DNA from: Acidobacteriota bacterium | GTDB lineage: Bacteria > Acidobacteriota > Blastocatellia > Pyrinomonadales > Pyrinomonadaceae | DNA length: 64,000 nt | Reading direction: 5' to 3' | NCBI GenBank assembly: GCA_025463135.1 | Contig: JAOAPY010000016.1 | Coordinates: 124,001 to 188,000, forward strand | Shown here: piece after piece, positions 3,502-5,908 of the stretch | Position numbering within the stretch: position 1 is the first letter of the stretch | Layout: every line of letters starts with the position of its first letter | Notes under the pieces: model-generated | What the model saw: only the letters and a program-made list of their open reading frames with translations | Databases searched by the model: none | What the model was told of the DNA's origin: nothing | Made by a program: the position numbers and the translations under genes

Positions 3502-3604
3502 TCTGGGACCGCACGCATCCTGCGTGCTGGAGTTGGGGCGGTTTCTCCTTGCGATCCCGAAGGCCAGTGCCGCAGCCCCAGCACGCCAGAAGCGTGCGGT
3601 CCCA
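3502..3604. repeat. Palindromic intergenic repeat (GGGACCGCA family)
   Basis: TGGGACCGCACGC at 3504-3516 is answered by its reverse complement at 3592-3604. The left arm also holds a small hairpin (GCACGC, ATCCT, GCGTGC). A sister copy of the left arm lies at 61286-61311, with CACGC/GCGTG changed to CAGGC/GCCTG so that pairing is kept. It lies between the divergent tricorn gene and the aromatic operon promoter. Confidence 0.7.
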
Positions 3605-3623
3605 GGGAACCCGATATTTTTCC

Positions 3624-3653
3624 TTGACAGGTTTTTGTACGGCTGTCTATAGT
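3624..3653 (+). promoter_or_regulatory. Sigma-70 type promoter of the aromatic (phe) operon
   Basis: TTGACA at 3624-3629 and TATAGT at 3648-3653 are separated by 18 bases. Transcription would begin near 3660, about 25 bases before the leader peptide start codon. The perfect -35 box suits an operon controlled mainly by downstream attenuation rather than by an activator. Confidence 0.75.
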
Positions 3654-3684: not shown

Positions 3685-3792
3685 ATGACGATTACCACGC
3701 ACACCCTCTTTTACTTCGCCTTTACGTACCGCTTCTTCTTTAACGGGGAGAGCGGACCGGCGAAATGTGGACGTGAAGTGCGAAAGACTTAA
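3685..3792 (+). CDS. Phe/Tyr-rich leader peptide (pheL-like) of an attenuator
   Basis: A 35-codon open frame, ATG to TAA, too short for ordinary gene calling. Codons 9-19 encode LFYFAFTYRFFF from its Leu onward: six Phe and two Tyr codons in eleven. A weak purine-rich stretch (AGAGAG) precedes the ATG. It sits between a consensus promoter and a strong terminator, ahead of chorismate mutase, prephenate dehydratase and DAHP synthase, exactly where a leader peptide sensing charged tRNA-Phe (and perhaps tRNA-Tyr) would be. The best known analogue is the enterobacterial pheL system; resemblance in sequence is limited to the Phe run. The peptide itself probably has no other function. A long opposite-strand frame across this region is taken as a shadow. 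Confidence 0.82.
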   Translation: MTITTHTLFYFAFTYRFFFNGESGPAKCGREVRKT

Positions 3793-3837
3793 GCAACCAG
3801 CACTAAATAGCTTCCAAACGAGCCAGCCGCGACTCCC
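3746..3837 (+). promoter_or_regulatory. Antiterminator pairing of the phe attenuator
   Basis: Just after the Phe/Tyr codon run, GGGAG (3746-3750), GCGG (3752-3755) and GGC (3759-3761) are complementary, in order, to CTCCC (3833-3837), CCGC (3827-3830) and GCC (3822-3824). Forming this pairing removes the 5' half of the terminator stem. A competing upstream hairpin, CCGCT (3729-3733) with AGCGG (3751-3755), overlaps the Phe codons, so a ribosome stalled there would free the antiterminator. The pairings are read by eye from sequence; their use is inferred from known attenuators. Confidence 0.6.
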
Positions 3838-3868
3838 AAAACGGGAATTAGTCGCGGCTGGTTTTTTT
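3823..3868 (+). terminator. Rho-independent terminator (attenuator) before chorismate mutase
   Basis: A perfect 12-bp stem, CCAGCCGCGACT at 3823-3834 with AGTCGCGGCTGG at 3850-3861, is followed by seven T residues (3862-3868). It ends only 20 bases before the chorismate mutase start, with no gene other than the leader peptide between it and the promoter, so it must act on the operon itself. Confidence 0.88.
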
Positions 3869-3887
3869 ACGAAAGGAACCACAGTCG

Positions 3888-4190
3888 ATGAATATCCAAT
3901 ACTGGCGCTCGGAAATAGATGAAATCGACCGCACGCTTTTGCAGCTCTTGAACAGGCGGGCGCGCCTGGCCATGAAGGTTGGCGCCCTGAAGCGCGTGGC
4001 AGGCTTGCCATGTTGCGATCCGGAACGCGAGCGCACAGTGCTGTTGACGCTGCAACAAGCAAACAGCGGCCCGCTCGATCAGCGCGCCATTGGCAAACTC
4101 TTTCGCCGCATCATCAGCGAATCAAGACGTGTCGAAGCGGGGGCCATTCAAACAACCGACGGCGCCGAAATGCGCCAGGGCTTGCTGTGA
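3888..4190 (+). CDS. Chorismate mutase, AroQ (all-helical) type
   Basis: A 100-residue monofunctional chorismate mutase, converting chorismate to prephenate, the branch point to Phe and Tyr. The N-terminal helix RSEIDEIDRTLLQLLNRRA and the following MKVGALKR carry the conserved Arg/Lys pattern of the AroQ fold; length is normal for the isolated domain. A sequence AAGGA lies about ten bases before the ATG. The terminator of the attenuator ends 20 bases upstream, and the last codons overlap the prephenate dehydratase start (GTGA). In many bacteria this domain is fused to prephenate dehydratase as PheA; here the two are separate but translationally coupled. Confidence 0.92.
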   Translation: MNIQYWRSEIDEIDRTLLQLLNRRARLAMKVGALKRVAGLPCCDPERERTVLLTLQQANSGPLDQRAIGKLFRRIISESRRVEAGAIQTTDGAEMRQGLL

Positions 4191-4786
4191 TTAATTCAGC
4201 GCCAAGACCAAGAGTCGCCTTTCAGGGTGAGCCTGGTGCGTTCAGCGAAGATGCAGCCATCACGCTGCTCGGTCCCGAGATCGAGTCGGTGCCGCGCCCG
4301 ACCTTTGCTGCGCTCTTCAGTAGCGTTGCCGAAGGGTTGGCAGACTTTGCAGTCGCGCCGGTCGAAAACAGTCTGATCGGGGCAATTGAACCGGTGGTTG
4401 CTTTGCTGCGTGGGAGCGCACTGATTAACAGCGGCGAGATAGTCTGCCGCATTCAACAGCAGTTGATTGGCTGCCCGGGTGCCGTTTTGGAAGATATTGA
4501 AACAGTGGAATCCCATCCGGCGGCTCTGGCCCAATGCCGGCGCTTCTTTACCGAGTATCCGCGAATCGTTTCTATCGCGGTCGACGACACCGCCGGCAGC
4601 GTCGCGCGAATAATCAAAAGCGGCAATCGCACACGCGCGGCGCTGGCAGGACGGCGAGCCGCAAAACTCTACGGAGGCTTTATCATCAAGGAGAACCTGG
4701 AAGACGATCCGGAGAACTACACACGCTTCGTGCTCCTCAGGAGTGGAGAGATTGGTGACTCTTCAAACCGTCCGCCGTTTAGATAG
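4187..4786 (+). CDS. pheA: Prephenate dehydratase, catalytic domain only (no ACT domain)
   Basis: Converts prephenate to phenylpyruvate for phenylalanine synthesis. The catalytic domain begins at RVAFQGEPGAFSEDAA and reaches the conserved Thr-Arg-Phe motif (residues about 179-181), then ends 18 residues later. The C-terminal ACT domain that normally binds Phe for feedback inhibition is absent, so the protein is 199 residues instead of about 280. I start it at GTG 4187, which overlaps the chorismate mutase stop (GTGA); the longer in-frame extension is out-of-frame mutase sequence. The stop codon lies inside a 57-bp palindromic element, which may have cut the gene short. Loss of feedback inhibition would leave the upstream attenuator as the main Phe-sensing control. 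Confidence 0.88.
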   Translation: MINSAPRPRVAFQGEPGAFSEDAAITLLGPEIESVPRPTFAALFSSVAEGLADFAVAPVENSLIGAIEPVVALLRGSALINSGEIVCRIQQQLIGCPGAVLEDIETVESHPAALAQCRRFFTEYPRIVSIAVDDTAGSVARIIKSGNRTRAALAGRRAAKLYGGFIIKENLEDDPENYTRFVLLRSGEIGDSSNRPPFR

Positions 4787-4832
4787 CGGACTTGTCCGCC
4801 CGACCAGGGGCACAAGTGACCCTATCTAAACG
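4776..4832. repeat. 57-bp palindromic element with 11-bp terminal inverted repeats
   Basis: CGTTTAGATAG (4776-4786) and CTATCTAAACG (4822-4832) are perfect inverted repeats, with an inner hairpin CGGACTTGTCCG. A close relative lies at 56458-56513 and a looser one at 51233-51294; single arms appear near 32829 and 6483. The left arm supplies the prephenate dehydratase stop codon. Confidence 0.72.
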
Positions 4833-4891: not shown

Positions 4892-5908
4892 ATGATCGTT
4901 AACATGTCAACAATCGCAACTAAAAAAGAGATCGATCACGTCATTGAAAGAATCAAGGAGTGCGGCTATCAAGCGCACGTCATCGAGGGCACCGAACGCA
5001 CTGTGATCGGCGCCGTCGGCAACGGCGGCCGCCGATCAGAAATTGAGGCCCTGCGCGCGGCGCCGGGCGTGCAGGAAGTAATTCAAATCACACATCCGTT
5101 CAAGCTCGTCAGCCTGCAACTACGACAACGCCGCACTGTAGTTGATGTCCGTGGAGTAAAGATCGGCGGCGGCGATTTAGTGGTGATTGCCGGCCCTTGC
5201 TCGGTCGAGTCGGGTGAGCAACTTAGAGAAACTGCCCTGGCTGTAAAGGCGGCCGGCGCGCAAATGTTGCGCGGCGGCGCTTACAAACCCCGCACCTCCC
5301 CGTACGATTTCCAGGGATTAGGGGTAGAGGCCTTGCGGCTTTTGCGTGAGGCCGGCGATGAAACCGGATTGCCAATCGTTACAGAAGTGATGAGCGAAGC
5401 CGACGTCGAAATCGTGGCCGAGTATGCCGACATGCTGCAAGTGGGCGCTCGGAACATGCAGAATTTCTCGCTTCTCAGAAAGCTGGCGAAGTTTGCGCGG
5501 CCGATTCTTTTGAAGCGTGGACCATCCGCCACCATCAAAGAATGGCTGCTGGCAGCCGAGTACCTCCTGGCCGGTGGCAATGCGAATGTGGTGCTTTGCG
5601 AACGCGGCATCAAGACTTTTGAAACAGCCACTCGGAACACTTTGGATTTGTCGGCCATAGCGTTGGCAAAAGAGTTATCACATTTGCCGGTGCTGGCAGA
5701 TCCATCGCACGGCACTGGCTTGCGCAGCCTGGTGCCACCGATGTCAAAAGCTGCGGCGGCGGCGGGCGCGGACGGGTTAATGATCGAGGTCCATCCCTGC
5801 CCTGAACGAGCGCTCTCGGATGGACCCCAATCTTTAGATCTGCCGGGCTTTGCCGCACTGATGCGGGAACTCGGCCAGCAGCCTTTGAAGGAAGTGCGCG
5901 CTGCGTAA
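4892..5908 (+). CDS. aroF: 3-deoxy-7-phosphoheptulonate synthase (DAHP synthase, type I beta)
   Basis: Catalyses the first step of the shikimate pathway, joining phosphoenolpyruvate and erythrose 4-phosphate. Residues 1-75 form the ferredoxin-like regulatory domain seen in the Thermotoga enzyme, where it mediates inhibition by Tyr and Phe. The TIM-barrel core follows, with GPCSVES at 101-107, KPRTSPY at 132-138, QIGARN-type text ([10 protein letters not shown]) and DPSHGTG near residue 270. Length (338) is that of the regulated form. AAGGA lies about ten bases before the ATG. The gap to prephenate dehydratase is 105 bases with no terminator obvious beyond the palindromic element, so it is probably cotranscribed and under the same attenuator. 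Confidence 0.95.

Follow-up and report, generated by a model that had tools for sequence, protein, structure and literature searches.

In the prephenate dehydratase (PDT) family the ACT domain is the carrier of feedback inhibition by phenylalanine, and end-product control of phenylalanine synthesis is usually layered, combining the allosteric ACT domain with control of transcription. Paired inverted REP sequences are known as REPINs or BIMEs (PMC3116915, PMC2817692), and the REP tags described are GTAG or CGTC (PMC3733652). A probable PDT without an ACT domain and an inverted REP pair that carries its stop codon occur together in the window, the 64,000-nucleotide stretch of DNA from a member of the Pyrinomonadaceae (Acidobacteriota) that was analysed here. 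The operon runs in the order Phe-rich leader and terminator, chorismate mutase (CM), PDT and DAHP synthase (DAHPS), with the following features in window coordinates.

3624..3653, + strand: sigma-70-like promoter, TTGACA-18-TATAGT, 5' of the leader (from reading of the sequence; TTGACA...TATAGT also precedes the leader in most of the ACT-less g10 relatives)
3685..3792, + strand: Phe-rich leader peptide MTITTHTLFYFAFTYRFFFNGESGPAKCGREVRKT, ending at a stop codon (core F(Y/F)YFAFT(Y/F)R conserved in ACT-bearing and ACT-less relatives)
3822..3868, + strand: intrinsic-terminator hairpin, then T7, the putative attenuator (RNA fold of 3796-3872: -33.9 kcal/mol, z -5.8)
3888..4190, + strand: chorismate mutase (AroQ type), a separate gene (PF01817, E 2e-24)
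4187..4786, + strand: probable prephenate dehydratase, catalytic domain only, without ACT (PF00800 at residues 10-186; AlphaFold pLDDT 94.8; best PDB match 2qmx, TMq 0.83)
4776..4832, no strand: 57-nt palindromic element of two inverted REP units (REPIN/BIME-like), with the PDT stop in its left arm (11-nt perfect arms; copies compared; 116 REP-unit matches genome-wide)
4777..4799, + strand: first REP unit, GTTTAGATAGCGGACTTGTCCGC (comparison of copies and genome-wide unit matches)
4808..4831, - strand: second REP unit, inverted, GTTTAGATAGGGTCACTTGTGCCC on the - strand (comparison of copies)
4892..5908, + strand: type-I beta DAHP synthase with an N-terminal ferredoxin-like (FXD) domain (PF18152 at residues 1-67, PF00793; NF006421 over its cut-off)

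A second long inverted repeat, GGGACCGCACGC...GCGTGCGGTCCC, is present at 3505-3606, just 5' of the operon promoter.

The PDT is 199 residues long and its GTG start overlaps the stop codon of the CM gene as GTGA. As the original prediction had it, the protein lacks an ACT domain, ends 18 residues after its Thr-Arg-Phe motif, and has its TAG (4784-4786) within the left arm of the 57-bp element. The only domain detected is PF00800, which scores 168.6 bits against a curated cut-off of 25.2, and the C-terminal ACT domain of the canonical PDT-ACT architecture was not found in this protein by the domain search. In an alignment of 34 PDTs the PxEN, SHPxALxQC and NxTRF motifs are retained, with N61, H110, Q116, T179 and F181 invariant, and S109 nearly so, in both short and long forms. 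Low confidence in the AlphaFold model is limited to the final 10-12 or so residues, and the PDT of Chlorobium tepidum (2qmx) is the top match both by sequence and by fold. The gene is likely to encode an intact prephenate dehydratase consisting of the catalytic domain only. The PDT does diverge faster than the DAHPS (65% as against 88% identity to L122/L144), which could be taken as the mark of a decaying pseudogene, or of a changed function with phenylalanine made otherwise, but this is very unlikely for the sole PDT gene of a complete 6.48-Mb genome, one that is grouped with CM and DAHPS downstream of a Phe leader, keeps its conserved-site columns, and has a confidently predicted fold nearest to those of true PDTs.

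The palindrome at the end of the gene is a REP pair (REPIN/BIME-like) belonging to a family of more than 100 copies. Its arms, at 4776-4786 and 4822-4832, are 11 nt each and 100% complementary, and the RNA fold of the 57 nt has an energy of -29.4 kcal/mol (z = -6.8). Other copies in the genome likewise have two inverted units, GTTTAGA-NN-GCGGACTTGTCCGC and a GGGCACTTGTGCCC version, separated by a spacer of variable length, and single units are also found. The element is not a chance palindrome, because there are many genomic copies and the REP unit has 116 matches in the genome with 2 or fewer mismatches, whereas the reversed control pattern has none. Among the 39 copies fetched, 23 do not overlap an ORF of at least 150 aa. 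A RAYT transposase is expected to accompany a REPIN or BIME; the genome does have six Y1 transposase-like (Y1_Tnp) genes, and in none of the flanking stretches fetched for them was a focal REP unit seen. An array of the same units, with a spacing of about 69 nt, is present at L224 (G009:C31, approximately 119942-120197).

PDTs that do have an ACT domain are present close by in the family. Near relatives L010-L021, also Pyrinomonadaceae, have about 95 extra residues including the ACT domain, in L013 and L131 an ACT-bearing PDT adjoins the same DAHPS neighbour, and the domain is also present in nearly all of the more distant Acidobacteriota that were fetched. By this comparison the absence of ACT from the focal PDT is a derived state, because close ACT-bearing relatives exist. 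These relatives, some with the DAHPS adjoining (L013, L131), together with the position of the stop codon within the element, are what speak for the original prediction that an ACT-bearing PDT gene was hit by the element, truncated and so deprived of allosteric control. That course of events is nevertheless extremely improbable. The family-wide search identified nine Pyrinomonadaceae relatives (L122-L126, L128-L130 and L142) in which the PDT has no ACT domain and there is no element, four of them being the nearest to the focal PDT on the tree, and the claim of truncation is refuted by these nine. The comparison of orthologues proposed with that prediction thus turned up relatives with neither ACT nor element, the outcome that had been named in advance as refuting it, and it is with four such relatives that the focal PDT groups (98/89). 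Furthermore, no ACT remnant is present between the element and the DAHPS gene; only 105 nt separate the PDT stop from DAHPS, which leaves no room for one, and the genome has no Phe-type ACT.

The nine element-free PDTs are 50-65% identical to the focal protein, end 10-36 residues past the TRF motif, and are found in the same CM-PDT-DAHPS order. The element itself was found in only 9 of the 119 family genomes. Comparison shows the ACT domain to have been lost before the palindrome landed, because close relatives free of the element are also without ACT. No relative exceeds 66% identity in the PDT domain, so that what happened first in the focal lineage has to be read across a long branch.

A tree of 81 PDT domains, built on the PDT columns alone, comprised 30 ACT-less and 51 ACT-bearing proteins. 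One change separates the two sets, with a split support of 69/90, which gives moderate support to a single loss of ACT. Parallel losses, one in the focal lineage and one in genus g10, with the element helping in the former, for instance through recombination between REP copies, are hardly probable. In their favour, forcing the focal PDT and the nine g10 short forms into a clade costs 7.6 log units relative to the best tree, although with a p-AU of 0.33 such a clade is not rejected. A second, separate loss did also happen in the class, in genus g39 of another family (L228, L229 and L230), where the PDTs stop right after the catalytic domain; there is no CM or DAHPS within the fetched stretch at these g39 loci. 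However, the focal PDT is joined with L122-L125 at 98/89 on the PDT-column tree, and the DAHPS, CM and leader of these four are also the closest to those of the focal operon. Identity to the focal DAHPS is about 88% for L122-L125 and 73% for the ACT-bearing operons of L013 and L131.

A move of the ACT domain to another place in the genome was considered and rejected. The Phe-type ACT profile found no match in a genome-wide search of the window's genome, nor in 13 other ACT-less genomes, whereas the positive controls, four ACT-bearing genomes, gave matches at about 1e-40. Of the matches to the general Pfam ACT models in the genome, two stand-alone ones were read; judged from their sequences, one is a small subunit of acetolactate-synthase type and the other, of 158 aa, a different sort of small ACT protein. 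These searches indicate that the domain was lost outright and not relocated. In the literature searched, no description of the ACT-less PDTs of this clade was found. One assembly, G068, has both a fused CM-PDT-ACT gene (C77) and an ACT-less CM/PDT/DAHPS operon (C304, L171), at a listed contamination of 5%. The PF00800 match is absent from 51 of the 119 family genomes, some of them near complete (e.g. G002), which may reflect phenylalanine auxotrophy or another route.

Comparison likewise places the insertion of the REP pair after the ACT loss, in the variable tail and spacer between PDT and DAHPS. In six of the nine relatives the PDT and DAHPS genes share 4 or 11 nt, and in the other three they are 5-35 nt apart; in the focal operon this junction is wider, at 105 nt. 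When the flanks are joined by script without the element, the reading frame ends 33 residues past TRF, close to the 31-36 residues of L122, L123 and L125, and the element may therefore have cost the PDT some 15 residues of non-conserved tail, the exact boundary depending on the reconstructed tail. The element supplies the present stop codon and has widened the gap to DAHPS; judged against such a reconstructed pre-insertion tail, it would have shortened the non-conserved tail by a few residues at most. Its hairpin may conceivably alter mRNA processing, or DAHPS translation relative to CM-PDT.

The leader core, F(Y/F)YFAFT(Y/F)R, is found 5' of the ACT-less g10 operons and also where an ACT-bearing operon has its CM as a separate gene, and elsewhere in the class, in other families, F-rich leaders precede PDT. 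The leader, still in place in the focal operon, most probably predates the loss of ACT and, since it also precedes ACT-bearing operons, did not arise in compensation. By the criterion applied, such a leader is present in 29 of 30 ACT-less and 7 of 23 ACT-bearing family operons, counts that were coded by hand, are uncorrected for phylogeny and are descriptive; it is absent from most of the fused CM-PDT-ACT genes. An antiterminator was not clearly seen in simple folds of leader fragments. In the ACT-less relatives the leader is conserved in its C-terminal part (SGPA.CE..V) as well.

From what is known of the family, the focal PDT without its ACT domain should escape inhibition by phenylalanine through the ACT route. 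Control by phenylalanine would then most likely fall to the ancestral leader attenuator and possibly also to the co-transcribed DAHPS through its ferredoxin-like domain, a possible regulatory domain that the focal DAHPS retains at its N-terminus. At the focal operon both the attenuator and the DAHPS could sense aromatic end products, and attenuation as the main phenylalanine control is a plausible hypothesis for the clade as a whole. In a divergent ACT-less sub-clade (L153, L154, L167, L168, L173, L175, L177, L178 and L182) the adjoining DAHPS has no ferredoxin-like domain, and most members have TTF or similar in place of TRF. Where neither that domain nor ACT is present, the Phe leader is, as read from sequence, the only visible sensor of phenylalanine. 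It can be suggested, tentatively and at somewhat less than even chances, that the lineage shifted its phenylalanine control from allostery to attenuation, given the clade-wide loss of the PDT ACT domain and the disappearance of the DAHPS ferredoxin-like domain from at least nine operons of the sub-clade. Overall, the locus is very probably best explained by an intact PDT, an earlier clade-level loss of ACT, a later insertion of the REP pair, and control by phenylalanine through the leader and possibly DAHPS.

A clade in which the PDTs are catalytic-only and almost all preceded by a Phe leader, while sister lineages of the family retain ACT, provides a natural experiment in which to ask if attenuation is enough by itself, and it supplies PDTs that are ACT-free by nature. 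The locus also cautions that a stop codon within a repeat should not be taken as evidence that the repeat caused a truncation.

The catalytic fold and conserved residues of the focal PDT are common to the bacterial PDTs that have ACT, such as 2qmx, 6vh5 from Brucella and the P-protein PheA of E. coli. The relatives in the PDB are, however, 267-313 aa long with a C-terminal ACT domain, whereas the focal PDT ends after its catalytic domain. The leader is organized as in the ribosome-mediated attenuators of the pheL/pheA type, with a short ORF rich in Phe codons and then an intrinsic terminator before the Phe genes, yet unlike these its peptide is acidobacterial and there is no Rfam match anywhere in the window, the leader and terminator (3685-3868) included. 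The element resembles REPINs and BIMEs in having two inverted units that form a hairpin, more than 100 units per genome, single units and an array, and a location mostly outside large ORFs; its tag is GTTTAGA, in contrast to the GTAG or CGTC types described (PMC3733652).
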